Positions 2,413-39,171 of a stretch of 64,000 bases of DNA are shown here, in pieces. Below the pieces are notes generated by a model, which made no database searches, was not told where the DNA came from, and saw only the letters and a list, made by a program, of their open reading frames with translations. The first letter of the stretch is position 1. Each line of letters opens with the position of its first letter. The DNA is taken from assembly GCF_017696075.1 (NCBI RefSeq), contig NZ_JAAORI010000004.1:124001-188000 (forward strand), written 5' to 3'. The translations under genes were made by a program, and so were the position numbers. Origin of the DNA: Prochlorococcus marinus XMU1411 (GTDB lineage: Bacteria; Cyanobacteriota; Cyanobacteriia; PCC-6307; Cyanobiaceae).

Positions 2413-2443
2413 GTCTAGTATAGTAGCTGAAAAAACCAAATTG

Positions 2444-3556
2444 ATGCAGAGACCTTTAGTTACTTTTGTTTTAGGTACAAGACCAGAAGCTATCAAACTA
2501 TCGCCATTGATAATCGCTTTTAAAGCTTCTGAAAAGGTTCAAACAAGGGTGATTTTAACTGGGCAACACATAGAGATGGTAACCCAAGTAACAAATATAT
2601 TTAATATAAAAGAGGATTTCAATCTTAATTTGATGCAACATGGTCAGAGTTTAACATTTATTACTAATTCGATTCTGAATGGCCTTGATGCGGAGTTCTC
2701 GAAAAACAAGCCCCAATTCATATTAGTCCAAGGAGATACAACTACAGCATTTGCTGGGGCTTTGGCAGCCTTTTATAAAAATATTCCTATAGGTCATGTT
2801 GAAGCAGGATTAAGGACTGGTTCATTAGATAATCCTTTTCCAGAGGAAGCCAACAGAAGATTAATATCTCAGATTTCAACACTTCATTTTGCACCTACAA
2901 AAAATGCATATTTAAATCTTATAAATTCAGGAATTAATAAAGAAAATATTCAAATAACAGGTAATACTGTAGTTGATGCCTTGAAGATCATAGCTGAAAA
3001 GGATCTTAAAAATAAATGTAATGAAATCTATTCTGGCGGAGATTATCTTATTCTATTAACAGTACATAGAAGAGAAAATTGGGGAGAAAACCTTAAAAAT
3101 ATAATAATTGCTATTAAAAAAATCGTTCAGTTCCATACTAATATTTCAATTGTTTTACCCATGCATAAAAACAAAATAGTTAGAGATATTTTAAAAAATG
3201 AGCTTGGGGAAAATCCCAAAGTTATTCTTACTGAAACACTGCCATATGATCAATTAATATCTGTAATGAAAAAAAGTTACTTTATTATTACTGACTCAGG
3301 CGGCATTCAAGAAGAAGCACCTACTTTAGCAAAACCTGTCCTAGTCATAAGAGAAACCACAGAAAGAACTGAGAGTATTGAAGCAAAAACTTCAAAGTTA
3401 ATAGGTACCAATCCAGATAATATATTTAAAGAAGTTTCAGAATTAATTTTAAATAAAACTAAGTATCAAAAAATGGCAAAAGCTATTAATCCATATGGAG
3501 ATGGTAATTCAAGCAAACGAATTCTAAGTCACTGTCTTAATTTTTTGAAAATTTGA
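2444..3556 (+). CDS. wecB: UDP-N-acetylglucosamine 2-epimerase (non-hydrolysing)
   Basis: This enzyme interconverts UDP-GlcNAc and UDP-ManNAc in the cytoplasm. The roughly 370-residue protein carries the family landmarks in order: GTRPEAIKLSPL near the N terminus, EAGLRTG, FPEEANRR, TGNTVVDAL, TVHRRENWG and the UDP-binding ITDSGGIQEE block. The track start is TTG at 2441; the adjacent ATG at 2444 gives the standard MQRPL beginning. The gene follows fcl by about 30 bases. The matching UDP-ManNAc dehydrogenase (wecC) lies at 5488-6714 on the other strand, so UDP-ManNAcA is a likely product. Its non-hydrolysing type differs from the NeuC-like protein at 23.0-24.2 kb. Confidence 0.95.
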   Translation: MQRPLVTFVLGTRPEAIKLSPLIIAFKASEKVQTRVILTGQHIEMVTQVTNIFNIKEDFNLNLMQHGQSLTFITNSILNGLDAEFSKNKPQFILVQGDTTTAFAGALAAFYKNIPIGHVEAGLRTGSLDNPFPEEANRRLISQISTLHFAPTKNAYLNLINSGINKENIQITGNTVVDALKIIAEKDLKNKCNEIYSGGDYLILLTVHRRENWGENLKNIIIAIKKIVQFHTNISIVLPMHKNKIVRDILKNELGENPKVILTETLPYDQLISVMKKSYFIITDSGGIQEEAPTLAKPVLVIRETTERTESIEAKTSKLIGTNPDNIFKEVSELILNKTKYQKMAKAINPYGDGNSSKRILSHCLNFLKI

Positions 3557-3658: not shown

Positions 3659-5506
3659 CTAGGCATTGCAATTATTTTTAATCTTAACAGGAATTTCTAT
3701 TTTTTTTATTCCACTGCTTATTTCCCCTGTCAGGCACAAACTCAAACGTTTTTCTCTTATCCCAAAACCCTCAGAATAATATGTTTCGCAAATTGTATGT
3801 TTTGCTCCGTACTTTTCTTCTGCGATTTTAATTATATTTTTTAAAACTTTTTTATCTACTTTAGGACCTAAATGCCACCATTGACGCCAATACAAATCTA
3901 TTCTGGAACTTATTTGATCTATTAGTACAAAGTCAAGATTACCATCGATATCTAACGATATTGAAATTTCCCTTCTATGAGCAGCATTGATTTTCTTAAG
4001 CGAATCATTTTCTCCTGAAACAACTAATTTATTATTAATTTTAAGAGACTTATTAAATAGGGATTGAGACTTTCTTGCTGCACGAAAACTTTTCCATACT
4101 TCAACTGATTCAATCCAGTTTATTTTTTTCTTATTAAAATCAGATTTGATAGCAAATTGGATTAGGTTATGAGCCTCACCAGAACGCTCGTATAATCTTT
4201 CAGATATATTTTCATATCCGCTAGTTCCCACTTCTGCAAAAACAGGTGCTCCTTTAAAAAATAAATCGAAAGTTAATTGATCAGAATGAACATGTGCTGC
4301 CTGATGTTTTGGACAAGGTGTTCCATTTTTAAAAACTAATTCCCAGCTCGATCCTGGTCTTAAAAAATACCATCCAGTATCTTTAAGTTCTCTTATTCCT
4401 AATTTATTATCTATTGATATATACCTGTTAGAGTTATTTTTAATTTCATTGCTAAAAATCAAGTCAATTAAATTATCTCTAACAGGTGTTAATATTTTTC
4501 TTTCTTTATTTAAGAAAGATTTAGCAAAATTCAGAATATCTGTATTAGATTCGTACAAATTATTAGGAGAATCATTGAATCTTGGCATCCTTCCTTTTTC
4601 TAAAGATGCTATCTCTATCCACTCAACCATTAAATGAATTTTTTCTATAAGCCAAAAAGGTCTTTCTTGTTTAAAATATTCTATTATTATTGCCAGTTCA
4701 GTTAATCTATCAAGCAAAAGTATGTGATATGAGGCGCTCCTTTCTTGATGACCTCCATCTTTTAGTATTTGAGAATCTAATTCCTCCTTTAAACTAATTA
4801 TTGCATATTCATATATCTCTTCTGATTTAATCGAATTAAATTGAAGACTAGAAATAATTAAAGATATAATATTTTCTAGCCAATGATTGCCTCCATGGCA
4901 TTTTTCAGGATGACTATATAACCAACAAGTTTGTATCCAAAGTGAATTCAATCTTTTTTTTGTTGCAAGCTCAGGGAAAAATCTAAACAACAAAATCCAA
5001 TTTCTTATCCTTAAGGAAAGTGTATAACTATGCCATCCATCACCTTTTGAGATTGGGTTGAAATCAATCCAATTATCAATTAAATGAGGCAAGTATTTAA
5101 GATATTTGATTTGTTTTTTTTCTAGTAAAATTTCTTCAAGCCAAGATCTAGACCAATCAAAATAATGGAGATTAAATTGCCATAATCTTGAACTTTTATT
5201 ATTCCAATCCTTAATAGGCAATTCCAAATCTTCTCTAACATTTAAGAATTTGAAAGAAATCTTATTTAATTTTTTATGTTCCTTATCAAGAAAATAATTA
5301 TAATTAGCCAATTCGAGCATTTTATTTTTTTTATAAATTAGTTTCTTAGTATTTTTAATTACAAAAAACTTAACTATATATTTGGGTAAAAAATTATCTA
5401 ATAATCTTCTAGATTCATATCTGAATCTCAAAAAAAGTCTATAAAAACCAACATCCTTTAATGTATGAAAATATAAGTAAATTTTTCTCAATTTACTAAT
5501 CCGCAA
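3659..5506 (-). CDS. Heparinase II/III family protein (copy 1)
   Basis: The protein is about 610 residues, a length typical of heparinase II/III-like (alginate lyase-like) proteins. It has an alpha/alpha-toroid N-terminal half with the HGGNHWLEN motif and a beta-sandwich C-terminal half with HVHSDQLTFDLFF. These Asn-His and His-x-x-Asp-Gln-Leu blocks are the conserved, probably catalytic, positions of the family. No signal peptide is visible, so it may act in the cytoplasm. Proteins of this type in capsule clusters are thought to modify uronic-acid-containing glycans, but their reaction is not established. The annotated TTG start overlaps wecC by 19 bases; a second TTG five codons later nearly removes the overlap. 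A second copy occurs at 12357-14579. Confidence 0.82.
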   Translation of the reverse strand: MRISKLRKIYLYFHTLKDVGFYRLFLRFRYESRRLLDNFLPKYIVKFFVIKNTKKLIYKKNKMLELANYNYFLDKEHKKLNKISFKFLNVREDLELPIKDWNNKSSRLWQFNLHYFDWSRSWLEEILLEKKQIKYLKYLPHLIDNWIDFNPISKGDGWHSYTLSLRIRNWILLFRFFPELATKKRLNSLWIQTCWLYSHPEKCHGGNHWLENIISLIISSLQFNSIKSEEIYEYAIISLKEELDSQILKDGGHQERSASYHILLLDRLTELAIIIEYFKQERPFWLIEKIHLMVEWIEIASLEKGRMPRFNDSPNNLYESNTDILNFAKSFLNKERKILTPVRDNLIDLIFSNEIKNNSNRYISIDNKLGIRELKDTGWYFLRPGSSWELVFKNGTPCPKHQAAHVHSDQLTFDLFFKGAPVFAEVGTSGYENISERLYERSGEAHNLIQFAIKSDFNKKKINWIESVEVWKSFRAARKSQSLFNKSLKINNKLVVSGENDSLKKINAAHRREISISLDIDGNLDFVLIDQISSRIDLYWRQWWHLGPKVDKKVLKNIIKIAEEKYGAKHTICETYYSEGFGIREKRLSLCLTGEISSGIKKIEIPVKIKNNCNA

Positions 5507-6714
5507 AAATCTAATACATTTTTATTTAGGAAATCTAATTGATAAAATTCAGAATGGGAAACAAGTAAGATATGAATATCAACCGAATGATATATTTCAT
5601 CCAAAGATACCAAATCAAATAGATCAATATTTTTGATATTAGGGTCGCATACAACCACATCAAAATTATTGGATAATAATTCTAATACTATTTTCAAAGC
5701 AGGGGATTCTCTAGTATCGTCTACATTAGGTTTAAATGAGATCCCATAGCATCCTATTTTAATTTCTTTTTTTAACTTGCCTCTTATTTTTTCAACATAA
5801 TCCATAATTTTATTCAATACCCAAGTTTCCTTATGCAGATTAACCTCCCTTGCAGTTCTTATTAAAGAGGAATTATCAGGGAAACTAGAAGTTATAAACC
5901 ATGGATCAATTGCAATGCAATGACCTCCAACTCCACAACCTGGTTGTAATATATTTACTCTTGGATGATGATTTGATAAACTTATCAACTCATTTGCATC
6001 TATACCAATTTCATCGCAAATAATGGAAAGTTGATTAGCAAATGCAATATTTAAATCTCTATAGGAATTTTCAGTGAGTTTGACCATCTCTGCAGTTTTA
6101 GTAGAAGTGATAAATAATTTACCTTTACAAAAAGATCGATAGAAAGCCTCTGCTAATTTTGATGATCTTGAATTAATGCCTCCAATTACTCTGTCATTAT
6201 TTGTCAATTCAAACAAAATATTTCCAGGCAATACTCTTTCAGGACAATAAGCAACATTTAATTCTGAAAAGTCAATATTAGAATTTTCTTGGAGCTTTTT
6301 TGCAATTATATTTGAAGTTCCAACTGGGCAAGTTGATTCTAGTATTATGAGATCTCCCTTTTTTATAAAAGGAGTTATTGAATCTATAGCATTCAAAACA
6401 TATGAGATATCTGGCTTAGGCAGTTTATTATTATTTATTTGCAAAGGGGTTGGAACACAAATAATGAAAATATCTGATTGAGCTGGTTTGGTTGAAACTT
6501 TTAATAATTTTTTTGATACTGCTCTTGAAATTAAATCTTTAAGACCATTTTCTTTAATATGAATTTCACCTTTTTTGATTATGTTAACTACGGAATCATT
6601 TGTATCAACACCTAATACATTAAAACCAGCTCTAGTCAATATTGCAGCAGTAGGTAAACCAATATATCCCAGACCAAGTATACATATTTTAAGATCTTTA
6701 AATTCTTTTTTCAT
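5488..6714 (-). CDS. wecC: UDP-N-acetyl-D-mannosamine dehydrogenase (UDP-ManNAcA synthesis)
   Basis: This NAD-dependent four-electron dehydrogenase oxidises UDP-ManNAc to UDP-ManNAcA. It has 408 residues, with the Rossmann motif ILGLGYIGLPTA near residue 12, the CPERVLPGN block, and the catalytic-cysteine segment GCGVGGHCIAIDPWF. The FKPNVDDTRESPA block, common to the UDP-glucose/ManNAc dehydrogenase family, is also present. GVGGHCIAIDPWF is the WecC form rather than the UDP-glucose dehydrogenase form. The gene is probably co-transcribed with the downstream heparinase-like gene, which suggests that ManNAcA or a related uronate is in the substrate of that protein. It completes the pathway begun by wecB at 2444-3556. 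Confidence 0.92.
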   Translation of the reverse strand: MKKEFKDLKICILGLGYIGLPTAAILTRAGFNVLGVDTNDSVVNIIKKGEIHIKENGLKDLISRAVSKKLLKVSTKPAQSDIFIICVPTPLQINNNKLPKPDISYVLNAIDSITPFIKKGDLIILESTCPVGTSNIIAKKLQENSNIDFSELNVAYCPERVLPGNILFELTNNDRVIGGINSRSSKLAEAFYRSFCKGKLFITSTKTAEMVKLTENSYRDLNIAFANQLSIICDEIGIDANELISLSNHHPRVNILQPGCGVGGHCIAIDPWFITSSFPDNSSLIRTAREVNLHKETWVLNKIMDYVEKIRGKLKKEIKIGCYGISFKPNVDDTRESPALKIVLELLSNNFDVVVCDPNIKNIDLFDLVSLDEIYHSVDIHILLVSHSEFYQLDFLNKNVLDFCGLVN

Positions 6715-6923
6715 TTTATAAATTTAGTAAAATCTCGAACAATTAATTTTTTATTGGTAAATTATCATGTTTCATATAAATTTAAAAATTAGTTAGGCTT
6801 TTATCAATAGAATTTATATTACATTAAAACCTAATTAAATTAATTTAAAGACAATAAATTTTTATTAAATTAGGCTTATTGTTAGAATATTAAAAAGGCT
6901 ATAAATTATCTTAATATTTAGCA

Positions 6924-9044
6924 TTGAAACAACTTTTCCAATCATTATCAGACGGTAAAACTTGTATTCAAGAGGTGCCAATTCCTAATCTAAGTAAAGG
7001 CAATCTTCTAATAAAAACGCATTGCTCATTATTATCCTCTGGAACTGAGAGAATGCTAATAGAATTCGGAAAATCAAACCTTATCGGCAAAGCAAAACAA
7101 CAACCGGATAAAGTAAAAGAGGTATTAAATAAACTTAAAACTGACGGTATATTATCAACAATAGAAACTGTTAAAAACAAATTAGAATTACCAATCCCTC
7201 TAGGTTATTGCAATGTTGGAGAGGTTATCAGAATAGGGGAAGAAGTATCAGGATTTAAATTAGGAGATCGAGTTATCTCCAATGGTTCTCATGCCGAAAT
7301 AGTTTCTGTTCCCAAAAATTTATGTGCACTTATACCAAATGAAGTAAGTAATGATAGAGCTGTTTTTACCGTACCTGCATCTATAGCTTTACAAGGCATA
7401 AGGCTTGCAGAGCCAACTTTTGGAGAAAAATTTGTGGTTATTGGTCTTGGATTAATTGGCCTTTTAACAGCGCAGGTTTTACTAGCTCAAGGATGTGAAG
7501 TTATTGGAATTGATAACGATTTTTCCAAATGCAAGTTTGCAGAAAAATTAGGTATAAAAACTTTTCACAATAAAGAAGGTTTTGATTCAGTTGATGTTTT
7601 ACTAGGCAAATCTGACTATATTGGATTTGATGGGATATTAATTGCAGCCTCAACTCCTTCAAGTGAACCAATTAATTTTGCAGCAAAGATTTGTAGAAAA
7701 AAAGGTAGAATTATTTTAATTGGAAGCACAGGAATTGATATTTCTAGAGATAATTTTTATAAAAAAGAATTAACCTTTAAAGTAAGTTGCTCTTATGGAC
7801 CTGGGAGATATGATCAGAGTTACGAAAATGACGGTCAGGATTATCCTATAGGATATGTTAGATGGACAGAACAAAGAAATTTTAAGGCAATTCTCTCTTC
7901 TATGGAGAAAAATTTAATTAAGCCAGAAGTTATAATTTCAAGTAAATTTGAATTCAAAAATGCTTTGGAAGCCTATGATGAATTACTAAACGATAAAGCA
8001 AGTTTAGGAATCGTTCTTGAATATACCAAAAGCAATAATAATATTGTTAAATCTACTATTATCCTAAATAAAGATAAAAACCCCTCAGAGAAAAATCTTT
8101 TAACAGACTTTATAGGTGGTGGTAATTATGCTGGCAAAACACTTATTCCTATTTTCAAACAATCAGGAGCAAAACTTAATACATTATCAACAATTTCAGG
8201 CTTGAATTCGTCACATCTTGGTAAAAAATTTGGTTTTAAAAAAATAACTACAAATAGAAATTTAATCTTTGATGAAAAAGAAGCGAATATATTAGCAATT
8301 GCATCACAACATGATTCTCATGCAGAATACATCATAAAAGGATTAAAAGAAAAAAGAAAAATTTTTGTCGAAAAACCTTTATGCATAAATAGAATACAAT
8401 TCAACGAAATAAAGAAAACTTATCTAGATCTTATTGAAAATAATAGGAATAATTCAACTCCAATTTTGATGGTTGGTTATAATAGAAGATTTTCAAAATT
8501 TATAAAAAAAATAAAAACCAAAATTGACCAACTTAACTGTCCAAAAGCATTTATATACAAGTGCAATGCAGGCTATATACCTGAAAGTCACTGGACACAA
8601 GATAGAAATAAAGGAGGAGGCAGACTTATTGGAGAAGCATGCCATTTTATTGACTTATTGAGATTCCTCGCCAACGATAAAATAAAAAATATAAATTTTA
8701 CTGAGTTAGTACAAGAAAACTCCTTAAATGATACATTTACACTTAACATAACTTTTGTTAATGGATCTATAGGCACAGTGCATTATTTTTCTAATGGGAA
8801 CAAATCTTATCCCAAAGAGACTTTGGAGATATTCGCTGAAAATTCTATTATAAAATTAGATAACTTCAGAAAAATCAGATCATGGGGCATTAATCTAAAT
8901 GAATCTAATAATTTCAGGCAAGATAAAGGTCAAAAAGAATGTATTAGATCCTTTTTAGAAACTGTAAGATTAGGCAAGGAACAACCAATACCAATTAATG
9001 AAATTTTTGAAGTTCAAGATTGGATTTTAAAAATAATGAATTAA
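6924..9044 (+). CDS. Bi-domain oxidoreductase: MDR (zinc-dehydrogenase-like) fused to Gfo/Idh/MocA (copy 1)
   Basis: The 706-residue protein has two halves. Residues 1-375 are a medium-chain dehydrogenase with the cofactor motif VIGLGLIGLLTAQ near 173. Residues 390-706 are a Gfo/Idh/MocA domain with FIGGGNYAG, the EKPLCI catalytic-lysine block and GGGRLIGEACHF. The MDR half starts SLLSSGTE where zinc enzymes have a Cys ligand, so it looks zinc-less. This architecture occurs in polysaccharide loci beside heparinase-like proteins, but its substrate is unknown to me; a nucleotide- or lipid-linked sugar redox step is likely. The start is TTG at 6924. It is transcribed divergently from wecC across about 210 bases. 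A paralogue lies at 14607-16760. Confidence 0.85.
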   Translation: MKQLFQSLSDGKTCIQEVPIPNLSKGNLLIKTHCSLLSSGTERMLIEFGKSNLIGKAKQQPDKVKEVLNKLKTDGILSTIETVKNKLELPIPLGYCNVGEVIRIGEEVSGFKLGDRVISNGSHAEIVSVPKNLCALIPNEVSNDRAVFTVPASIALQGIRLAEPTFGEKFVVIGLGLIGLLTAQVLLAQGCEVIGIDNDFSKCKFAEKLGIKTFHNKEGFDSVDVLLGKSDYIGFDGILIAASTPSSEPINFAAKICRKKGRIILIGSTGIDISRDNFYKKELTFKVSCSYGPGRYDQSYENDGQDYPIGYVRWTEQRNFKAILSSMEKNLIKPEVIISSKFEFKNALEAYDELLNDKASLGIVLEYTKSNNNIVKSTIILNKDKNPSEKNLLTDFIGGGNYAGKTLIPIFKQSGAKLNTLSTISGLNSSHLGKKFGFKKITTNRNLIFDEKEANILAIASQHDSHAEYIIKGLKEKRKIFVEKPLCINRIQFNEIKKTYLDLIENNRNNSTPILMVGYNRRFSKFIKKIKTKIDQLNCPKAFIYKCNAGYIPESHWTQDRNKGGGRLIGEACHFIDLLRFLANDKIKNINFTELVQENSLNDTFTLNITFVNGSIGTVHYFSNGNKSYPKETLEIFAENSIIKLDNFRKIRSWGINLNESNNFRQDKGQKECIRSFLETVRLGKEQPIPINEIFEVQDWILKIMN

Positions 9045-9048
9045 TTTG

Positions 9049-10197
9049 CTAACAAAATAATTCTTTATTACTTTTCAAAATTTTTTCAATATTTATTTTA
9101 TTTTTTACAAACTTTACAGAGTCTAATCTTTTCTTTTCGTACTCTTTTGGTGAAAGCTTCGCGATATTATTTATAGAATCAACGAAATCTAACTTATTTA
9201 ACAAGGAAATATCCCAACCTGCATTATGTTTAGATAAATCCCTCCAAGGAGTTTGATTAGAGATTAATACAGGGGTCCCCACTGATAAGGACTCGAATAT
9301 TGTATGACCATAGTTCTCACTTTTTGTTGGCAGAAAAAAAAGATGGTTTTGACTAATTATTTCTCCAACTTCTTTATGGTCTATAGAGCCTAAATAACTA
9401 TATGAAATATTAAAAGGTAGTTCTTTCAACAACTTAAGGCAATAATCCCAAAAATCCTTATCGCATATAGGTCCCACTATTTCAAAGTGAACATTTATTT
9501 TTAACTCTTTTAAAACCTTAATCGCAAAATCTAAGTTCTTTATAGAAGAAATTCTTGACAAAAAAATTATTTTTAGTGGATTCATTGACAAACTTAAATT
9601 ATTAACATTTCGATCAAGATTAATTTCTGGTATATCAGGAGCAATTTTAATATTTAATATTCTACTTTTGAAAATATTTTGTATATCATTTAATTCATAA
9701 ACACTTGATGCCTGCCAAATAACATCTTGATCTAGATTTAAAAACTTAAATATATTTAAATAAATAATTTTACGAAATTTCTTGATACTTAATGCGCTTA
9801 ACGAAAATTCACCTCTAGGGGCGATAATTATTTTAGTTCGTGGAATTATTTTTAGGTACAACATTATTATAACTATTATTGAAAATTGAAATGAAAAAAA
9901 ACTATTTAAATAAATATAGTCGTATGATTCACGCCTAAAAAATCTTGGGAATTTATATAGAAAATATAAAAAATTTGATATATAAAATATCCTACTATTA
10001 TAAGCTTCATTCCAATCATCTACTTTAATATTTTGGAAAGAATTTAAATCATAAACATCTCTATCAGAAGTTACTATGTGAAAGAAATAATCATTACCTA
10101 TTTTGTTAATTAAATTAGCTATTGTTCTTACAGGACCACCGGATTTATAACCCGGTAAATAATATTTTATGAAGCAAATTATTTTTTTTTTATACAT
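9049..10197 (-). CDS. Glycosyltransferase, GT4-like (GT-B fold)
   Basis: This protein transfers a sugar from a nucleotide donor to the growing glycan at the inner membrane's cytoplasmic face. It has 382 residues. A glycine-rich acceptor-domain start contains GYKSGGPVRTIANL at about residues 16-29. A Glycos_transf_1 C-terminal half includes IIFLSRISSIKNLD and the nucleotide-binding segment SENYGHTIFESLSVGTPV with the family's E-x7-E pattern. The donor cannot be told from sequence. It ends 4 bases from the convergent end of the bi-domain oxidoreductase. It is the last gene of a minus-strand run (16760 to 9049) that also holds a putative polymerase, a GT and the second heparinase-like gene. Confidence 0.85.
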   Translation of the reverse strand: MYKKKIICFIKYYLPGYKSGGPVRTIANLINKIGNDYFFHIVTSDRDVYDLNSFQNIKVDDWNEAYNSRIFYISNFLYFLYKFPRFFRRESYDYIYLNSFFSFQFSIIVIIMLYLKIIPRTKIIIAPRGEFSLSALSIKKFRKIIYLNIFKFLNLDQDVIWQASSVYELNDIQNIFKSRILNIKIAPDIPEINLDRNVNNLSLSMNPLKIIFLSRISSIKNLDFAIKVLKELKINVHFEIVGPICDKDFWDYCLKLLKELPFNISYSYLGSIDHKEVGEIISQNHLFFLPTKSENYGHTIFESLSVGTPVLISNQTPWRDLSKHNAGWDISLLNKLDFVDSINNIAKLSPKEYEKKRLDSVKFVKNKINIEKILKSNKELFC

Positions 10198-10226
10198 AAT
10201 TTTAATTATATATTACTTTGTTTAGA

Positions 10227-11180
10227 TTAAAATCCAGTACCGTAAGTTAAGATTTTATCAATAAATAAGATGTTTTTATAGAAAAAGTATGAGAGTATTA
10301 AAAGATAAAGAGGACTGCTTGATTTTTTTTCTTTTATTATGAAGAAAGATGCAATAGTAAAACTAATCATATTTACTCTAAATCCACCCAATACAATTAG
10401 TGGAATTATCAATGGTAAATACATTAAAGAAAATTTAAACTTTTCTTTAATTAATAAAAAAGGTACTGTAAATAATATTACAAAATTAATAAAATCATTT
10501 AAACTAAAAAGTCCCAAAGAGATATAGTTAATTATTTTATAAATAAATGTTTGCAATGCGAATAAAATAAAAGCAGACATTATGGTTGCAAAAATAATTA
10601 AATCTTTTATAAAGTTTTTCCGAATAGTGAATTTATAAAATATTTTTTTCAAATCCTCAGATAATCTGCCAAGATATGAAGATACTACAATTACCAATGA
10701 CTGTAAATGAGCAAAAGGAGATATAAGTATAAGCAAATAAGTTAAATTTGTTGGTACTAATTGTGCATAAATATATAAAATATATGCGAATTTAAGTCTC
10801 TCTGCAGCAAACAATAATACTGAAATGTAAAAATTTCCGAAAATTAAAATTTGCGGTAATACTTTTACCTTTTCTTTTTGAAAAAATAAATAAAGACCAA
10901 AAACAAGTACAAGATTATAAATTGTTACGTATAAATTCTTATCAATATTAAGTACTGCTGAACCAATCCACATTAAATATAGATGAATCGGCTCAATGGC
11001 ATTAAGCCAATAATAACCTAGAAAAGGTACTTTTAAAAAACCTACATCAGAAACAGCTTCATAGAAAATCCAATATGCGCCTTGGTCGCCACCAGTATAT
11101 CTTGATTGTAAAAAATATAATATAGGAGCGATAATAGGTATTGATAAAATTATCCAAAAAATATTTTTATTTAATCTCAT
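10227..11180 (-). CDS. Multi-pass membrane protein, EpsG/Wzy-like candidate polysaccharide polymerase
   Basis: The 317-residue protein is almost wholly hydrophobic, with roughly eight or nine membrane segments and short polar loops. An early loop with YTGGDQGAYW and a central AAERLKFAYIL segment resemble the conserved region of EpsG-like proteins (Arg/Lys-rich stretch before a membrane helix). EpsG/Wzy proteins join repeat units on the outer side of the membrane. It sits between two glycosyltransferases, the classical place for a polymerase. Sequence conservation in this group is low, so the call rests on topology, size and context. It could be another integral membrane protein of the locus. 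Confidence 0.5.
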   Translation of the reverse strand: MRLNKNIFWIILSIPIIAPILYFLQSRYTGGDQGAYWIFYEAVSDVGFLKVPFLGYYWLNAIEPIHLYLMWIGSAVLNIDKNLYVTIYNLVLVFGLYLFFQKEKVKVLPQILIFGNFYISVLLFAAERLKFAYILYIYAQLVPTNLTYLLILISPFAHLQSLVIVVSSYLGRLSEDLKKIFYKFTIRKNFIKDLIIFATIMSAFILFALQTFIYKIINYISLGLFSLNDFINFVILFTVPFLLIKEKFKFSLMYLPLIIPLIVLGGFRVNMISFTIASFFIIKEKKSSSPLYLLILSYFFYKNILFIDKILTYGTGF

Positions 11181-11190
11181 TTTTAATTAA

Positions 11191-12342
11191 TCAACTTTCA
11201 AAGTTTTGCAAAACTGTTCTTAGTAATTTCTTTTTCTCATAATAAAATCTATTTTCCTTGATAAATTCTTTTAAATTAAATTTATAATAATCGTAATCAG
11301 CTAAAACTTCTAAAATATTTTTAGAAAATTCATATAAATAACTTTTAATTTGTTTTTGTTTAATGGTTTTACCAATTTCAAATCCATCAATTAATCTACT
11401 TAGTGTTTTTTGACCAGTTCCAATAACTGGTATTCCAGCATGAGCATATTCATAAACTTTATTTGGTGAACAAAGAATATTATTTATATTAATATTTGAA
11501 TAATATATAAGGCCTAAATCGAAAAAAGACAAAACATCTTGAAGATGTGAATTTGGAATTTTATTTATTATATGAATCCTTCCGTAAAAAATTGAGTTAG
11601 ATTTTTTTAATAATTCGATATTTTTTTTTGCAGGTCCAGATCCAATTAAAACAAGAGATATACTCAAAGGTAAAATTTTTAATAAATCGATAAAAAAATT
11701 AAGTCCCCTTTCTTCAGCAAAATATCCAGAATAAACAAGATATTTTTGATCCGGTTTAATTTCAAAGTCAATATATTTTTCTTTTATTTCTTTTGGTGAA
11801 ATAGTTCCAATGGTAGATTGTGATATATTTCTTATTGATAGTGGCAAGTTTTTTAATTTAAAGTGTCTTTTCATAACTGCAGCTCTTTCTTTATTAGCCG
11901 ATATTAAAATATCAAATTTTGATAAACAAAATTTTTCAGTAAAGTATAAAAGTAAATTAAAAATATTTAACTTGTATTTCTTCTCAGGTAATAGTAATTC
12001 ATGTGCATCATATATAGTCTTTGAATTAAATAATCTAGATATAACAAAGGTAATCAAACAAAGATATCTATCATGACCATATATTATTTTTGGTTTAATT
12101 AGAATCGAATAAAAAAACAATTCAAAATAAAAAATTATTAAAGATATAGAAGTAGGAAGTTTATTCCAAGTTATACGGGAAGATATATAAACTACATCAT
12201 TTTCTGTATATTTTTCCTTAAATTTATTAGAGGGTGAGAATAAATAAATACTATATATTTCTCTAAGAGACTCGATTGACCTTTTAACTCTTCCATCATT
12301 TTCAATGGGTGAGTAAACAGACATTAATAATTTCTTTTTCAT
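11191..12342 (-). CDS. Glycosyltransferase, GT-B fold
   Basis: The 383-residue protein begins KKLLMSVYSPIENDGRVKRS, the typical start of GT4-type enzymes in which Asp-Gly-Arg-Val lies in the first loop. It has YDAHELLLP in the middle of the N-terminal domain and PDQKYLVYSGYFAEERGL at the start of the donor domain. The C-terminal half has SPNKVYEYAHAGIPVIGTGQ, matching the E-x-x-x-x-G-x-P-V nucleotide-sugar site. Its donor is unknown. It lies 10 bases upstream of the putative polymerase and 14 bases after the heparinase-like gene, so it is surely in the same operon. Confidence 0.82.
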   Translation of the reverse strand: MKKKLLMSVYSPIENDGRVKRSIESLREIYSIYLFSPSNKFKEKYTENDVVYISSRITWNKLPTSISLIIFYFELFFYSILIKPKIIYGHDRYLCLITFVISRLFNSKTIYDAHELLLPEKKYKLNIFNLLLYFTEKFCLSKFDILISANKERAAVMKRHFKLKNLPLSIRNISQSTIGTISPKEIKEKYIDFEIKPDQKYLVYSGYFAEERGLNFFIDLLKILPLSISLVLIGSGPAKKNIELLKKSNSIFYGRIHIINKIPNSHLQDVLSFFDLGLIYYSNININNILCSPNKVYEYAHAGIPVIGTGQKTLSRLIDGFEIGKTIKQKQIKSYLYEFSKNILEVLADYDYYKFNLKEFIKENRFYYEKKKLLRTVLQNFES

Positions 12343-12356
12343 CTCAAATTAAAAAA

Positions 12357-14579
12357 TTAATTTTCAAGCATTCCATAACTAGGAGAATAATATAATTTAT
12401 GACGAGCATCATCTTTAGAAAGAAACTTTTCTTTATTAGATTTTGATTCACTCCCCATAAGAATAAGAACTTTTTTATTGGTAAAATACATAACTAATTT
12501 ATCAATAGAATATTCTGATATGTAAATACCTGAAAATCCTTTTATACCAGAATATGAACAATTTACAGATGTAATTTCCAAGTTTTCAAAAAGTGCCTTA
12601 TCTGTATCAGGTTCGTAACTTGTTGGAAAGTGAATTTTTCTCGATCTATATGAATTTCTCAATTTAGGAAATGGGGTATAAATATAAGATCCAAAATCCT
12701 TAAAAATATGCTTATCATTTAATTTTAAAGTAATAGATAATTGATCTTCATGAAAATGAGATTTTATAAAAGGGTTTTTCTTCTGAATAGATCTTATAGA
12801 GATAAAAATAAAACTATTTTTCCATAAATGAATACCAAAATCAGGATAATATCTATATGATATTTTAAAATCAGAAATATTTTGGGGAAGCTTTATTTCT
12901 TTTTTTAAAAAATTATTCTTATTATTCTTAATTATTTCTTTTTTAAGCAAATCTAAATTTCTTTCTTCACCATAAGGATTTATGAAATAAAAATTTTTAG
13001 GTTTTAGGATATCAAAAGTTTTATTTTCTGCTATATATTTTCCAAATTCATAGTAAAATGAATTTTTTATTTTTTTTGAATTTACAATTCCAACAGATTT
13101 TGCCAATTCTATAACATTTTTAATTAATAATGGTTGTTGGAATAAATAATTTGAATTTTTAAAATTTTTAGGAGATTTAAATTTAACTTTTGCATCTTTA
13201 TTTTTTATTTTTTTCCAATTTGGTCTTAAATTTAAAAATCTTCCAGAATCATTATCCCCAACTTGAGGATGCATACCCTGTTGATCTGAACAATCTTCTA
13301 GAAAAGTACAGGCTTTTACGAGTAACTGTAAAGTAGAATTCGGATAAAGAGAATATATTTTTTTATCTTGAAAAATAACATTTTTATATAATTTATTTTT
13401 TAAAGGGGTCTTTGCGTAAAATGGTAGAAAATTGTAGCTTACAGGTCTTAATTTAGATATTTTTATTAACCTTGATTCCTTATTATTTAATGAAATAATT
13501 ACAGAAAACAAAATCATTTCCAAACTTAAATTATGATAGGCTGTAGACCCTTCAAAATTACTTCCATCAGAATTAAATTGATGATGAATCTCTCTATTAA
13601 GTTCAGCGATTGCAAAAGATAACCATCGATTAGTTTGAAAAGTTTCTGGTAATAAAGATGATAAGCATAATATCCCACAGATATTAGTTAAATAGTGGTT
13701 ACCTCTATTTTTAGACCACTCAAGGTTATTTAATATATATTTTGCATGGTCATATAAACTATTAATTATTATATTGTTGTGTTTTCTCCAAATAAACATT
13801 TCTTTATTTGACATTAAAGATATTGCCATCAAAATATTAACTGCTCTAATTGCAACCTCCATCGTACAACTCCAATTAACTCCATATAGAGGAGGATTAA
13901 AGGCTATAAAATCCAAAATCTGATTATATATTTCTTTCTCAATATTTTTGGCTTTATTACTTCGTTTATCTAAAGTATTTAAATAAATAGTTAATTGAGG
14001 TAAATGTTGTAATCTGGCAAGCTCCCATGGATATTTAATATCAGATCCTATTTTATTTCCATATTTAATGCCTGTATACCATTGTTTCTCAGACCATCTA
14101 AAACCTGATTTAATATCAATATGCCAATCTATATTTTTATAAGATTTAGAAATATATTTTGCTACTTCAGAACATTTAGATTTATTTGCATAATTTAAAT
14201 TATTAATGTTATGACTATTAAAATTTTCTTGTTTTTTTTTCGTAAATAATTTAAATTTACTAATTTTTTTTTGTTTGATATATTTATTACAATCACACCA
14301 GCCACTCCCTAATAAATCAAATTCATGATTTAGATAATTTCTAAAAATTATTTCATCAGTTTTTTGCTTGTAAAATTTATTTAGAACTTTTTTAGGAAAT
14401 GGCTTTATATCATTTAATCTATTTGTACTAATTTGTTTTTCATAAGATGGAATATAAGAAAAATAAATTTTACATAAAAATTTGTGAATAATATAAAAAA
14501 TTCTAGATATAAATCTTAATCTGTATTTATTTTTTGAAATTAAAAATTTTATTTTCGTTAACTTGAAAGGTATATTCAT
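12357..14579 (-). CDS. Heparinase II/III (alginate lyase) family protein (copy 2)
   Basis: This is a longer paralogue of the protein at 3659-5506 (740 residues against about 610). The N-terminal toroid domain has SGFRWSEKQWYTGIKYG and KYPWELARLQHLPQL, a signature of the alginate-lyase-like branch. NRGNHYLTNICGI corresponds to the Asn-His motif. The C-terminal sandwich has HFHEDQLSITLKL, matching His-x-His-x-Asp-Gln-Leu. About 130 basic residues precede the conserved part and no signal peptide is obvious. The gene follows the bi-domain oxidoreductase at 14607 by 27 bases, so the same two families are paired again. The reaction is unknown; a role in uronate-glycan modification is inferred. Confidence 0.82.
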   Translation of the reverse strand: MNIPFKLTKIKFLISKNKYRLRFISRIFYIIHKFLCKIYFSYIPSYEKQISTNRLNDIKPFPKKVLNKFYKQKTDEIIFRNYLNHEFDLLGSGWCDCNKYIKQKKISKFKLFTKKKQENFNSHNINNLNYANKSKCSEVAKYISKSYKNIDWHIDIKSGFRWSEKQWYTGIKYGNKIGSDIKYPWELARLQHLPQLTIYLNTLDKRSNKAKNIEKEIYNQILDFIAFNPPLYGVNWSCTMEVAIRAVNILMAISLMSNKEMFIWRKHNNIIINSLYDHAKYILNNLEWSKNRGNHYLTNICGILCLSSLLPETFQTNRWLSFAIAELNREIHHQFNSDGSNFEGSTAYHNLSLEMILFSVIISLNNKESRLIKISKLRPVSYNFLPFYAKTPLKNKLYKNVIFQDKKIYSLYPNSTLQLLVKACTFLEDCSDQQGMHPQVGDNDSGRFLNLRPNWKKIKNKDAKVKFKSPKNFKNSNYLFQQPLLIKNVIELAKSVGIVNSKKIKNSFYYEFGKYIAENKTFDILKPKNFYFINPYGEERNLDLLKKEIIKNNKNNFLKKEIKLPQNISDFKISYRYYPDFGIHLWKNSFIFISIRSIQKKNPFIKSHFHEDQLSITLKLNDKHIFKDFGSYIYTPFPKLRNSYRSRKIHFPTSYEPDTDKALFENLEITSVNCSYSGIKGFSGIYISEYSIDKLVMYFTNKKVLILMGSESKSNKEKFLSKDDARHKLYYSPSYGMLEN

Positions 14580-14606
14580 ATTAATTTAATTATTTTTTTT
14601 TGATTT

Positions 14607-16760
14607 TTAAGTTATTAAATCGTTTATATCCAGGGAAATTTGGCACGCTTTAATTTGATCATTTAGTGATATAGGGTATTTGCCCATTTTGATACCATTT
14701 GCGAAAGCTTTTAATTCTTCGAGATGTCCTTTTTCATTATTTTTGGTTGAAAAATTATTTCTTCTTTTCTCATAGAAACTCATTTTTCTAAAGTCCTCCA
14801 TTGAAACGACTTCACCATCTTGAAAAAAATCAAAACTTTCTTTAGGAAACTTGTTATTTCCTAAAGCTGTAAAAATTAAATTGCAGATTGACCCATTTTT
14901 ATATTTGAATGTTGCAACAAAATTGTCAGTATTTGTATATAGACCAAATGAATTATTTAATGTTGGTTGAATATTAATAGAATGAGCAGAGAAACATTCT
15001 ATTTCCGAATCAGCAAGAAAATTAAAGATGTCATAGAAATGGCATGCTTCACCAATATTTCTTCCACCACCTTCATCTTTGTGAACCCAATTATCTAAAT
15101 TTATAAATCCTGCATTAACTTTATAATTAAAAATAAATGGATTTAAAGATTTTTTTCTTATATTTTTTAATTTTTCAAAATAAATAGAAAATCTTCTATT
15201 GTAACCTGTCATTAATATTTGATTTTCACTATTTTTATTAAGAAATAATTTTATCTTATCAAGTTGAAGTTGAGAAATAGATAAAGGTTTTTCAACGAAA
15301 ACATGTTTGCCAGCTTTTAATGATTCTATAACAATCTCAGAATGCAAGTCATGTCTAGTTGAGATTAAAACAGCATCTATATTAGGGTTATTAATTATTT
15401 CTTCAAAATTATTACAAATATTTTTAATAGAAAATTGTTCAGCTATTGAAAGTGAAGTAAATCCATTTTTGTTGACTATGGAATCTATAGAATATAGGTT
15501 CTTAAGTTTTTTCAAATTTGGCAAATGTACACTTCTTGTAAAATTTCCACAACCAATAATTCCGATATTAATCTTCTTATTATTTTTTTTAAAAATATTA
15601 TGTTTTTTAATATTTATAGAATTAGAAATTAAATTTTCTGATTTTAATCTATTGGGATATTCGAGAACAGCTAAAACTTTCTTTTCTTCCGATTGCAATG
15701 ATGCGTATGCCTCTTCAAATTTATCTAGAGAAAATTTATTAGATATGAATTCATCAACAGATAAATTTCCTTCATTGATTAATCTGAGATACTCCTGCAT
15801 ATTCCTATTTTCTGTCCATCTAATATAGGGTAAAGGGTAATCTAATCCTTCTTCTTCATATCTTTGATCATATCTACCTGGACCATATGATGTAGAAACA
15901 AGAAAATCAATTTCTTTAGAATAAATATCATCTCTATTTAATTTAAGGCCCACATCTCCAACTAATATAACTCTAGCTTTTTTTCTACAGCATCTAAAAG
16001 CGGTTGAAACTACAGAATCTGAATTTGTTGAAGCAGTTATTATTACACAATCTACTCCATATCCATTAGTAATTTTTAGTATCTTATTTTCTATTTCTTT
16101 ATCATTTAAGAATCCTTCTTTTAAACCTAACGATTTTGCTAAATTAACTCTTTTTTTATCTAAATCTAAACCAAAAACATTACAGCCATTTGATCTCAAT
16201 AATTGACTTGTAAGCTGTCCAAGTATTCCCAATCCTAAAACAAGTACATTTTCACCCAATGTTAGATTTGCCCTTCTGACACCTTGAAGAGCTATAGCTC
16301 CCAAAGTAACAGTTGAAGCTTTTTCTAAGGAAAGTCCATTTGGAACAAGCACGCATAATTTTTCAGGTATACAAATATATTCAGAATGATAAGCATATTT
16401 TGCGCCTGCACAAGCAACTTTATCACCCAAAGAAAAAGAAGTAACATTTTTTCCTAGAGCAATTATTTCTCCTGCTGCTGAATAACCAATTGGAAGATAA
16501 TCAAATTCTTTTTGTGAAATGATTTCATTGGTTAAAGCAAAACCTTTTTCTTTAAGCAATTTGAAACCGGTAATAATCTTTTTAGGATCTTTTACTGCTT
16601 TAACTAATAGTGAATCTGCAGTTGAACCTATTGATTTAATTTCAGTTCCTGGAGAGAGTGCAGAATAATGAAGTTTAACTAGTATTTCATTATTATTTAT
16701 TGCAGGGAAAGGTACCTCAAAAAGATCTGGTTTTCCATTTCTAATTAATATTTGCTTCAT
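14607..16760 (-). CDS. Bi-domain oxidoreductase: MDR fused to Gfo/Idh/MocA (copy 2)
   Basis: The 717-residue paralogue of 6924-9044 has the same domain order. The MDR half carries YSALSPGTE in place of a zinc-Cys loop, LPIGYSAAGEIIALG, and the cofactor motif VLGLGILGQLTSQ. The Gfo/Idh half begins near residue 395 with NIGIIGCGNFTRSVHLP, followed by EKPLSISQLQ with the catalytic lysine and GGGRNIGEACHFYD. It shares the SYGPGRYD block with copy 1. It is the first gene of the heparinase-glycosyltransferase-polymerase operon running to 9049. Divergence between the copies is large, so they may act on different sugars or be acquired separately. Confidence 0.86.
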   Translation of the reverse strand: MKQILIRNGKPDLFEVPFPAINNNEILVKLHYSALSPGTEIKSIGSTADSLLVKAVKDPKKIITGFKLLKEKGFALTNEIISQKEFDYLPIGYSAAGEIIALGKNVTSFSLGDKVACAGAKYAYHSEYICIPEKLCVLVPNGLSLEKASTVTLGAIALQGVRRANLTLGENVLVLGLGILGQLTSQLLRSNGCNVFGLDLDKKRVNLAKSLGLKEGFLNDKEIENKILKITNGYGVDCVIITASTNSDSVVSTAFRCCRKKARVILVGDVGLKLNRDDIYSKEIDFLVSTSYGPGRYDQRYEEEGLDYPLPYIRWTENRNMQEYLRLINEGNLSVDEFISNKFSLDKFEEAYASLQSEEKKVLAVLEYPNRLKSENLISNSINIKKHNIFKKNNKKINIGIIGCGNFTRSVHLPNLKKLKNLYSIDSIVNKNGFTSLSIAEQFSIKNICNNFEEIINNPNIDAVLISTRHDLHSEIVIESLKAGKHVFVEKPLSISQLQLDKIKLFLNKNSENQILMTGYNRRFSIYFEKLKNIRKKSLNPFIFNYKVNAGFINLDNWVHKDEGGGRNIGEACHFYDIFNFLADSEIECFSAHSINIQPTLNNSFGLYTNTDNFVATFKYKNGSICNLIFTALGNNKFPKESFDFFQDGEVVSMEDFRKMSFYEKRRNNFSTKNNEKGHLEELKAFANGIKMGKYPISLNDQIKACQISLDINDLIT

Positions 16761-21151: not shown

Positions 21152-21281
21152 ATGCAATAGAGGTTCTTTAATTTCAAAAGATGTTGCTAAGAAATAAATT
21201 ATAAAATTACTTAAATCACTTTAACATTATCGATAAATATAAATATTATTTTTATAGCTATAGGATAAATTTTTTATTATT

Positions 21282-22325: not shown

Positions 22326-22327
22326 TA

Positions 22328-23026: not shown

Positions 23027-23035
23027 TTTATTAAA

Positions 23036-25197: not shown

Positions 25198-25248
25198 ATC
25201 AATTGTAAATTTAATTATTTTACAATGTAATTAAAAATAAAAACCACA

Positions 25249-25285
25249 ATTATTTAATTAAAAAAATTTTTTTTAATTAAATAAT
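25249..25285. terminator. Perfect 18-bp A/T palindrome across the end of the UDP-glucuronate epimerase gene
   Basis: Bases 25249-25266 and 25268-25285 are exact reverse complements separated by a single T. The palindrome spans the stop codon (25254-25256) of the upstream minus-strand gene. RNA from either strand could form a long hairpin made only of A-U pairs. It sits exactly between the epimerase gene and neuB, so it may attenuate or protect the transcript. An all-A/T stem is weak, and its function is inferred. Confidence 0.4.
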
Positions 25286-39000: not shown

Positions 39001-39171
39001 CAAATCTTAGATTTAAATTTTATATTTTAAAGTATGTGAGATTGTTCAGATTTATCACATAATCATATCTAATTTTAATTGAATATTTATCTTTTTTTTC
39101 AATTCTTAAGTAATCTTCAATTAATTAATTGTTTTTAAGAACATTTACGATAAGATTATAAAAAAAAATTT

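Follow-up and report, generated by a model that had tools for sequence, protein, structure and literature searches.

A bi-domain oxidoreductase and a heparinase-like protein that recur together in bacterial surface polysaccharide gene clusters, most likely as a sugar-remodelling cassette

Genes of the window

The window, a stretch of 64,000 nucleotides from Prochlorococcus marinus XMU1411, carries two bi-domain oxidoreductases (BI1 and BI2) and two heparinase II/III-like proteins (HEP1 and HEP2). Based on Pfam, NCBIfam and family profile searches, the following genes were assigned:

2441..3556, + strand: WecB-type UDP-GlcNAc 2-epimerase (UDP-ManNAc supply); NCBIfam TIGR00236 wecB, 461 bits, cut-off 210
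3659..5506, - strand: HEP1, heparinase II/III-like, class I (HxHxD motif); Pfam, AF2 model and hydropathy; no hydrophobic N-terminus
5488..6714, - strand: WecC-type UDP-ManNAc dehydrogenase (yielding UDP-ManNAcA); NCBIfam PRK11064, 466 bits, cut-off 459
6924..9044, + strand: BI1, zinc-less MDR plus Gfo/Idh/MocA bi-domain oxidoreductase; Pfam, AF2 model and fold matches
9049..10197, - strand: GT4-type glycosyltransferase, last of the pair-2 gene run; Pfam Glycos_transf_1
10227..11180, - strand: 317-aa protein with hydrophobic N-terminus; unmatched in Pfam and NCBIfam at E 0.001
11191..12342, - strand: glycosyltransferase directly after HEP2; remote GT2-profile match (E 1.8e-17, 55 bits)
12357..14579, - strand: HEP2, divergent heparinase II/III-like, catalytic residues retained; Pfam and residue alignment
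14607..16760, - strand: BI2, divergent bi-domain oxidoreductase; Pfam; nearest relatives seen L148 (45%) and L149 (39%)
31414..32661, - strand: glycosyltransferase, the window's strongest GT2-family match (GT2 profile E 1e-17, 56 bits)
32669..34459, - strand: asparagine synthase-like amidotransferase; Pfam Asn_synthase

An earlier note on this DNA had described two MDR and Gfo/Idh fusions and two heparinase-like proteins; the open reading frames lie exactly where it placed them and their Pfam domains agree. Both BIs matched ADH_zinc_N/ADH_N followed by GFO_IDH_MocA. HEP1 matched Hepar_II_III_C (E 6e-23) and Hepar_II_III_N, both above cut-off, while HEP2 matched Hepar_II_III_N (E 9e-18) with a C-domain score of 21.2 bits, slightly under the curated cut-off of 24. 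At E <= 0.001, PF07940 matched no other protein of the 1.67-Mb genome.

The genes of pair 2 are adjacent, BI2 and HEP2 being 27 bp apart on the same strand in the order BI-HEP-GT. Those of pair 1, HEP1 (-) and BI1 (+), lie on opposite strands with the WecC-type dehydrogenase in between. The 3' end of that wecC gene overlaps the start of HEP1 by 19 bp. The paralogues are indeed related but divergent: BI1 and BI2 share 35% identity over their full length, and HEP1 and HEP2 share 30%, the similarity being confined to 145 aa. Local tandem duplication was rejected as the source of both pairs, each BI being closer to other loci (BI1 to Prochlorococcus loci L003 and L004, 53-54%) than to the other BI of the window; the two pairs are old, separate lineages. 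As regards phage origin, the Gfo/Idh half had a single partial hit in a phage collection.

The 317-aa protein is perhaps the putative polymerase of the earlier note, which is a guess. The glycosyltransferase at 31414..32661 and the neighbouring amidotransferase are possible partners of the cassette, though not adjacent to it here; the family of the latter was present in 22 of the best 80 of 581 loci (described below), its commonest position being directly before BI.

Domain structure and predicted folds

Thirty-one of the 80 BIs were aligned with both BIs of the window, giving 33 rows. In the MDR half, which has an MDR fold by structural comparison, the dinucleotide site G174xG176xxG179 is invariant. 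In place of GHE the consensus has GYC and BI2 has GYS, and Ser stands in place of the Cys (by eye); we take these positions to be the catalytic-zinc ligands of the MDR family, which the MDR domains of the BIs appear to lack. In the Gfo/Idh half the EKP motif of the Rossmann domain (E483-K484-P485) and the catalytic His (H574) are invariant, with Gly four residues before H574, the position of an Asp in the usual Gfo/Idh/MocA pattern. BI has two dinucleotide sites within one chain. Fold matches to the Gfo/Idh half of the BI1 model (AF2, mean pLDDT 86.2) included GenD2, KanD2, levoglucosan dehydrogenase and oxidoreductive sulfoquinovosidases, several of which are sugar C3 oxidases, but also PmdC and 1,5-AF reductase, which are not known to be.

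The AF2 model of HEP1 (mean pLDDT 85.7) has a toroid plus beta-sandwich fold like that of solved PL12 enzymes, matching heparinase III (4mmh, 4mmi, 5jmd, 4fnv, 5jmf) with Z 31-32 over 473-491 residues. It also matched human dermatan sulfate epimerase 1 (6hzn; Z 19.1, rmsd 4.3, 474 aligned, 15% identity). Candidate active-site residues of HEP1 are N207, H208, Y260, H405 and H446. The HEP alignment comprised 61 of the 73 HEPs (520-625 aa) and the two of the window. Asn207, His208, Tyr260 and His446 are conserved in 75/75 HEPs and align with the heparinase III motifs, in which Asn, Tyr and His have catalytic roles; HEP1 and HEP2 both retain these three. The position of the heparinase III catalytic His holds His in 52/75 HEPs and Pro in 23/75, the latter being the class II HEPs.

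A strongly hydrophobic N-terminus was absent in 61 of 62 HEPs (those of the 75 with 520-620 aa) by a simple hydropathy scan, which is not a signal-peptide predictor. Against a mark of 1.8, HEP1 scored 0.35 and HEP2, scored apart, 1.22.

Pairing of BI and HEP in other genomes

GTDB genomes were scanned for BI, and from 581 confirmed loci the best 80, judged by similarity to BI1, were taken with flanks of 10 kb at most; this set leans to BI1-type loci. A HEP was located within 10 kb of BI in 73 of these 80, downstream on the same strand in 70, and immediately next to BI in 54, of which 18 showed a 4-bp overlap. The remaining seven had no HEP, nor any match to a HEP2-type profile; three of them (L007, L026, L081) have less than 3 kb of sequence downstream, and in four (L004, L008, L058, L070) none was found within about 10 kb downstream.

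The second sample consisted of 348 genomes. Its centre genome, the BI of which is identical to one of the 80, was left out of the co-occurrence counts; none of the nine remaining high-scoring BIs exceeds 88% identity to any of the 80. A HEP above 400 bits was present in 9/9 high-scoring BI genomes against 3/338 others (Fisher p 1.2e-15), and in 8/9 it was within 0.73 kb of BI. The pair is also adjacent on plasmids of P. distasonis and Streptomyces KN37.

The co-occurrence check proposed in the earlier note therefore places the pairing far above chance, in keeping with a conserved unit, but the unit is not obligate, each gene occurring without the other. At the thresholds used, BI was without HEP in G127, G162, G314, G412 and G416, and HEP was found with a WcaI-family glycosyltransferase (GT2) but no BI in L093, L151 and L152. 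Genome G352 gave no HEP match at E 1e-25 but has a HEP2-type gene 1.5 kb from its BI. The HEP profile matched 84 places in 78 genomes of the second sample, 68 of them below 260 bits. Among these 68 only the HEP2-type match of G422 (256 bits) shares a contig with BI; two (G119, G156) are on other contigs of BI genomes, and the remaining 65 come from genomes in which no BI reached the threshold. The association is thus specific to one HEP subfamily.

Neighbouring genes and HEP classes

HEP is linked to GT2 as closely as to BI, and both BI and HEP are linked to WecB/WecC, which supply UDP-ManNAcA. Genes for WecB and for a UDP-sugar dehydrogenase were present in 36 and 35 of the best 80 of 581 loci, respectively, and so were missing from more than half of them within flanks of at most 10 kb. 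A genome-wide search covering 50 of the 80 locus genomes revealed WecC above cut-off in 34/50, with 16/50 lacking it, against 1/14 control genomes; in the 348-genome sample the counts were 7/9 high-scoring BI genomes against 48/329 without BI (p 6e-5). The P. distasonis plasmid has the gene order BI-HEP-wecC-wecB-GT4.

PglD was present in 18/23 class II HEP loci against 1/50 of the others, and DegT in 22/23 against 7/50. The ratio of between-class to within-class distance was 2.70 for HEP, 1.45 for GT2 and 1.06 for BI; the slight difference in BI was reached in 2 of 2000 shuffles. HEP class switches 10 times on the BI tree. In nine independent pairs, DegT+PglC differed in the same direction as class in 7.5 (average), in the opposite direction in 0 and not at all in 1.5 (median p 0.008), while PglD alone gave 5.6, 0 and 3.4 (median p 0.031, up to 0.22). 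HEP class therefore follows the neighbouring primer-sugar genes in some 7-8 of 9 independent comparisons and BI barely splits. Transfer of a HEP-GT2-pgl block as one piece could account for part of this link. In 199 Pseudomonas genomes, scanned for class I stand-ins for strain PA14, no class I HEP was found, all five matches being class II.

BI and HEP distances were correlated within class I (r 0.62, 41 loci) and class II (r 0.82, 22 loci), and over all loci only at r 0.26-0.34, because partners were swapped between HEP classes. Over the 63 loci with GT2 distances, and with host relatedness still included, r was 0.40 for BI-GT2, 0.47 for HEP-GT2 and 0.26 for BI-HEP. The two closest relatives seen of BI2 (L148, L149) have the two best matches seen to HEP2 within 1.5-2 kb. 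The second check of the earlier note thus also came out in its favour: the two pairs of the window co-evolved, although the correlation over all loci is modest.

Proposed pathway and alternatives

The best explanation makes BI and HEP biosynthetic enzymes that belong to a single cassette for sugar remodelling. We give a rough probability of 0.42 to the reading in which HEP is a candidate cytoplasmic uronate C5-epimerase and BI inverts C3, together converting D-ManNAcA to L-GalNAcA; an epimerase or redox step on a uronate, as suggested in the earlier note, is a well-motivated proposal. UDP-D-ManNAcA would be made by WecB and WecC, and GT2 would transfer the uronate to the first sugar, a lipid-linked "primer", on the inner side of the membrane. 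HEP, remaining in the cytoplasm, would use lyase chemistry, Tyr/His taking the C5 proton while Asn holds the carboxylate. Because O4 still bears nothing, C5 would then be re-protonated from the other face instead of undergoing elimination; we infer, accordingly, an epimerase and not a lyase, with a lipid-linked substrate. The Gfo/Idh domain of BI would oxidise a ring hydroxyl, most likely at C3, at one nucleotide site, and the zinc-less MDR domain would reduce it from the other face at the second, inverting C3. Since D-manno and L-galacto differ by inversion at C3 and C5, HEP alone would yield L-GulNAcA, and HEP with BI L-GalNAcA. The choice of C3, the order of steps and the product are likewise inferred.

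In favour of this scheme are the co-occurrence and gene order, the WecB/WecC link, the predicted HEP fold with its likeness to heparinase III and dermatan sulfate epimerase 1, the retained catalytic residues, the lack of a strongly hydrophobic N-terminus, the tracking of primer genes by HEP class, the Gfo/Idh fold matches, the need for both genes in the V. vulnificus capsule, and the uronate of PA14. Several observations count against it. Should GT2 belong to the retaining GT4 enzymes, inversion at C5 of its product would give a beta-L sugar, and PA14 has alpha-L-GalNAcA. Further points are the Pro of class II HEPs, PmdC and 1,5-AF reductase among the fold matches, the differing phenotypes of the PA14 hepP and zbdP mutants (PMC5732420), the loci and genomes in which WecB or WecC was missing, the slight difference of BI between HEP classes, the possible transfer of HEP-GT2-pgl as a block, the correlations of both BI and HEP with GT2, the BIs without HEP and the single strain with a solved structure. 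It is possible, though rather doubtful, that a heparinase-fold lyase has become a cytoplasmic C5-epimerase recognising the lipid-linked primer, each of the two HEP classes serving its own primer and BI deciding between L-GulNAcA (without it) and L-GalNAcA (with it).

An unlikely alternative is that BI oxidises and then re-reduces C4, with HEP exchanging the C3 and C5 protons of a 4-keto uronate. The two dinucleotide sites of BI would suit it, and the same D-manno to L-galacto change has been proposed for Bordetella WbmG/WbmH with the 3,5-epimerase WbmF (PMC2279256). The HEP-GT2 cassettes lacking BI, however, suggest that HEP needs no keto intermediate, and the C3 oxidases among the Gfo/Idh fold matches point to another carbon.

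BI and HEP might also act on different residues, or in unrelated steps, of one repeat unit and be neighbours as that unit is common, which we consider a little less probable again. The occurrence of each gene without the other, the modest correlation over all loci and the different phenotypes of the PA14 mutants (PMC5732420) are consistent with this, but not the high within-class correlations, the retention of HEP2 partners by the divergent BI2 lineage in the two relatives seen, or the immediate neighbourhood in fixed order at 54 of the best 80 of 581 loci.

It is improbable that HEP is a true lyase. The idea is that it would trim or clean up stray polymer, with BI salvaging the product, much as the alginate lyase AlgL has a clean-up role in alginate synthesis. 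The HEPs retain lyase catalytic residues, rHepP of PA14 cuts heparin (PMC5732420), and this role is favoured by the authors of the V. vulnificus study, in which, however, deletion of the HEP gene abolished the capsule (PMC6037467). HEP class, moreover, tracks primer-sugar genes. Wzy-type polymer is synthesized outside the cytoplasm, yet 61/62 HEPs are without a strongly hydrophobic N-terminus.

A deoxy sugar formed by BI oxidation, HEP elimination of a substituent and double-bond reduction by the zinc-less MDR is very improbable. In its favour, HEP has a lyase-type active site and zinc-less MDRs include double-bond reductases; against it, the sole known structure, that of PA14, contains no deoxyuronate (PMC2997053).

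Significance

Heparinase-like genes of O-antigen and capsule clusters have been treated as degradative or virulence heparinases (PMC6037467, PMC5732420); the evidence says that those of these clusters belong to synthesis. BI-HEP is most likely a widespread bacterial cassette by which the shape of an acidic sugar is flipped while a surface polysaccharide is built. It would allow structure to be predicted from genotype, HEP class indicating the primer sugar and BI distinguishing L-galacto from L-gulo uronate, in clusters of unknown chemistry including picocyanobacterial ones. BI with HEP is a candidate source of L-GalNAcA. If this is true, the D-manno to L-galacto conversion would have been solved twice by unrelated means, the one described here occurring in many bacterial phyla.

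Comparison with known systems

Only one strain, PA14, links BI and HEP genes to a solved structure. Its zbdP-hepP genes (PA14_23420/PA14_23430) lie 8 bp apart within the O-antigen cluster and, by their published domain descriptions, encode an MDR plus Gfo/Idh protein and then a heparinase-like protein with heparinase activity and no detected export signal (PMC5732420, PMC1794565). In pair 2 of the window HEP likewise comes straight after BI on one strand; pair 1, split by wecC, departs from this order, and the window's two pairs are divergent. The only uronate of the PA14 O-antigen is alpha-L-GalNAcA, next to QuiNAc (PMC2997053, with PMC1794565). The hepP mutant lost biofilm and virulence, from which the zbdP mutant was largely spared (PMC5732420); other reports list both as attenuated. 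The genes were studied in connection with a virulence-related heparinase, and the portions available brought up neither a biosynthetic step nor L-GalNAcA (PMC5732420, PMC1794565), nor an O-antigen assay or polymer chemistry of a deletion mutant. In the open-licence literature searched, neither a link between heparinase and L-GalNAcA nor an assigned L-GalNAcA pathway was found, and the main text of papers on P. aeruginosa L-GalNAcA gene clusters contained no mention of heparinase. A review of P. aeruginosa LPS contained no relevant term.

V. vulnificus YJ016 VV0357-VV0358, described as a zinc-binding dehydrogenase and a heparinase-like protein, resemble the window pairs by that description; each gene is required for a capsule that the authors suggest is heparosan- or alginate-like (PMC6037467). 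In Bordetella the proposed D-manno to L-galacto hexosaminuronate conversion employs two oxidoreductases and one epimerase (PMC2279256). Unlike BI and HEP, all three enzymes belong to the SDR family and use a UDP-sugar as substrate; they have no heparinase fold and neither of the two BI domains.

Heparinase III (PL12) resembles the HEP1 model in fold and the HEPs in active-site motifs. It differs in that known members are lyases degrading glycans, in the export expected of the family, of which the hydropathy scan gave no sign in 61 of 62 HEPs, in sharing only 16-20% identity, and in the catalytic His that class II HEPs have lost. Human dermatan sulfate epimerase 1, to which the HEP1 model appears related in fold, epimerises uronate at C5 on the finished polymer in the Golgi.

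Gene pairs of the window

Both zinc-less MDR + Gfo/Idh fusion oxidoreductases (BI) and both heparinase II/III-like proteins (HEP) described in the earlier note were found, with the domains claimed, at exactly the coordinates claimed. The features are as follows.

3659-5506, minus strand, HEP1 (pair 1)
6924-9044, plus strand, BI1 (pair 1)
12357-14579, minus strand, HEP2 (pair 2)
14607-16760, minus strand, BI2 (pair 2)
19817-21157, TviB-like dehydrogenase (best match TviB, below the TviB cut-off), part of the 19817-26294 cluster

The gene order of pair 1 is wecB(+), HEP1(-), wecC(-), BI1(+), with wecC overlapping the start of HEP1, while pair 2 reads BI2, HEP2, glycosyltransferase on the minus strand. 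Apart from HEP1 and HEP2, nothing in the 1.67-Mb genome matches PF07940 at E <= 0.001. A match to BI at E 1e-60 was found in one of 36 other genomes of the genus searched (G033), which also gives a weak HEP match; the trait is accessory in the genus. Adjoining pair 2 is a second sugar-acid cluster (19817-26294) carrying NeuB, an Epimerase_2 protein, a cytidylyltransferase and SDRs. At the thresholds applied, Pfam gave no match for four long ORFs (10227-11180, 26849-28663, 37366-39003 and 56558-57865), the first of which sits within the pair 2 gene run.

Judged from sequence relationships, pairs 1 and 2 appear to be two old lineages, with only two relatives behind the BI2/HEP2 lineage. The closest relatives of BI2 seen were in loci L148 (45%) and L149 (39%). 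Among the HEP2 matches seen, the best (27% over 535 aa, E 2e-59) is a protein of L149 whose gene lies 1.5 kb from the BI of that locus. The second-best (31% over 213 aa, E 8e-27) belongs to L148, where the distance to BI is 2 kb; the catalytic motifs are retained in all three proteins. L148 resembles the window in its content of wecB, a dehydrogenase, BI2-type and HEP2-type genes, and also a HEP1-type gene with GT2, the WcaI-family glycosyltransferase discussed below. This gene set suggests two remodelled uronates within one repeat. The locus has a single BI2-type oxidoreductase for its two types of HEP.

Conservation of the pairing

A scan of GTDB for BI, from which the best 80 of 581 loci were kept, covered many phyla, judged by record title, the closest relatives in the scan being in two Prochlorococcus genomes. 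The proposal that the two families form a conserved unit was supported: a HEP lies within 10 kb of BI in 73 of these best 80 loci, on the same strand and downstream in 70, and as the immediate neighbour in 54, of which 18 show a 4-bp overlap.

BI, HEP and WecC were also sought in 348 Pseudomonadota genomes, sampled separately. BI was present at E 1e-120 in 19, ten of which scored >1000 bits; one of the ten was the centre genome and was dropped, leaving nine. HEP was within 0.73 kb in eight of the nine and on another contig in one (G119). Among nine lower-scoring BI genomes, HEP was directly upstream of BI in G298 and G302, downstream at 2 and 8 kb in G422 (the genome of L148), and represented by a HEP2-type gene 1.5 kb from BI in G352; at E 1e-25 it was not found in G127, G162, G314, G412 and G416. 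HEPs of >400 bits occurred in 13 sample genomes, namely the ten high-scoring BI genomes including the centre, G422, and the BI-less G278 and G373 (9/9 high-scoring BI genomes versus 3/338 others, p 1.2e-15). Six plasmid records carried BI at E 1e-60. HEP adjoins BI on those of P. distasonis and Streptomyces KN37 and, from tblastn coordinates, on those of Sphingobium and Streptomyces NBC_01483; no HEP was found within 9 kb of the Thalassospira plasmid BI.

Co-evolution of BI and HEP was also recovered within HEP classes (distance correlation r 0.62 and 0.82), and BI-GT2 and HEP-GT2 distances likewise correlate. BI and HEP are very likely a conserved biosynthetic unit (probability about 0.9).

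The wider cassette and HEP without BI

By neighbour clustering, GT2 was present in 68 of the best 80 of 581 loci, its commonest place being two genes after BI; the two members typed, WcaI-family GT4 enzymes, had NF007640 as best NCBIfam match, below cut-off. The same 80 loci contained a sugar-phosphate transferase (34), DegT aminotransferase (30), CapD-type dehydratase (26) and PglD-type acetyltransferase (19), together with a WecB-type epimerase in at least 36 and a UDP-sugar dehydrogenase in at least 35, lower bounds because the locus flanks were short. Nine dehydrogenases were typed: five exceeded the WecC cut-off (window 5488-6714, L034, L079, L066, L020), TviB was best for two (window 19817-21157, below cut-off; L017, above), and L006 and L035 were assigned to neither. 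WecC over cut-off was found in 34 of 50 genomes searched from the best-80 loci, and in 7/9 high-scoring BI genomes versus 48/329 without BI in the 348-genome sample (p 6e-5). Upstream of BI, often directly, are WbpG/HisH/HisF-like genes (13-15 of the best 80 of 581 loci) or asparagine synthase-like genes (22), pointing to uronate amidation.

HEP also occurs apart from BI. E. coli plasmid pCRE10.2 (L093) carries wecB, wecC, a polymerase, HEP (652 bits to the family profile) and GT4 (507 bits) flanked by IS26 copies. No E. coli plasmid was among the BI matches in the plasmid collection (E 1e-60). This plasmid (NZ_CP034402.1) is conjugative, its O-antigen-like cluster includes two glycosyltransferases, and HEP matches of equal score were seen on further E. 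coli and Enterobacter plasmids. Both sample genomes with a HEP of >400 bits and no BI (at the threshold used) carry HEP-GT2-transferase, preceded by wecB-wecC-(477 aa) in G278 and followed by PglD-DegT-CapD in G373. GT2 shares the locus (about 4.6-4.9 kb) with 12 of the 13 HEPs of >400 bits, and BI with 9 of 13; given also the BI-less cassettes, HEP + GT2 therefore looks like the cassette core, with BI an addition.

HEP classes and the primer sugar

The third catalytic position of 75 HEPs is His in 52 (class I, about 545 aa) and Pro in 23 (class II, about 605 aa); HEP1 and HEP2 of the window belong to class I. PglD and DegT accompany class II in 18/23 and 22/23 loci, and class I in 1/50 and 7/50. 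Genes of this group make the first sugar (diNAcBac-type). The ratio of between- to within-class distance was 2.70 for HEP, 1.45 for GT2 and 1.06 for BI, the last, despite the small split, being matched by only 2 of 2000 shuffles. Along the BI tree (quick tree method) HEP class switches 10 times. Across nine independent pairs, DegT+PglC shifted with class in 7.5 on average and in the opposite direction never (median p 0.008), PglD alone being weaker (5.6/9, median p 0.031, up to 0.22). Read most simply, these results have HEP and GT2 contacting the primer sugar, so that HEP would act on a lipid-linked uronate, and BI making no such contact. Transfer of the HEP-GT2-pgl genes as one block would account for some of the association.

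Structure and predicted function

HEP1 was modelled with AlphaFold2 (mean pLDDT 85.7); the model has heparinase III as its best match (Z 31-32), and dermatan sulfate epimerase 1 scores Z 19.1. In profile alignment heparinase III places its GNH and YH motifs, which have catalytic roles, opposite the Asn-His and Tyr that are invariant in HEP, and its third catalytic residue opposite the HxHxD histidine. Asn207, His208, Tyr260 and His446 were present in 75/75 HEPs. A strongly hydrophobic N-terminus was detected in 1 of 62 by a simple hydropathy scan. HEP seems to have the architecture of an active lyase yet an intracellular location. It is slightly more likely than not a uronate C5-epimerase.

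In the BI1 model (mean pLDDT 86.2) the MDR half is near sorbitol and other dehydrogenases, and the Gfo/Idh half is near GenD2, KanD2, levoglucosan dehydrogenase, oxidoreductive sulfoquinovosidases, PmdC and 1,5-AF reductase (Z 31-33). Two dinucleotide sites are conserved in the BI alignment, from which the MDR zinc ligands seem absent. Residues 291-319 of BI1 (YGPGRYD...RWTExRN) rank among the best-conserved stretches, and 291-312 are of low model confidence (pLDDT <50); the stretch may be a mobile active-site loop closing over substrate.

Comparison with known systems

The BI-HEP type of operon and its requirement for capsule are already published. Both P. aeruginosa PA14 genes (zbdP, hepP) lie within O-antigen region PA14R38 (PMC1794565) and form one operon (PMC5732420). 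PA14 HepP (61.9 kDa) has the size of a class I HEP. For its capsule V. vulnificus needs each of the two genes (PMC6037467), a point in favour of synthesis over clean-up. The hepP and zbdP mutants of PA14 are described in PMC5732420 as unlike in biofilm and worm killing, which counts against a simple linear pathway; other reports have both attenuated.

The literature search found no published link between the BI-HEP pair and L-GalNAcA. The PA14 O-antigen is given in PMC2997053 as ->4)-alpha-L-GalNAcA-(1-3)-alpha-D-QuiNAc-(1-3)-alpha-L-Rha, so by that structure L-GalNAcA is the sole uronate and is placed on QuiNAc. D-ManNAcA and L-GalNAcA differ solely at C3 and C5, and the same change was proposed in Bordetella for the 3-acetamido analogue (PMC2279256). 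BI is tentatively, and with less confidence than HEP, assigned the second inversion, yielding L-GalNAcA. Inversion of D-ManNAcA at C5 by itself gives L-GulNAcA, which V. cholerae VPS probably derives from ManNAcA (PMC3901696).
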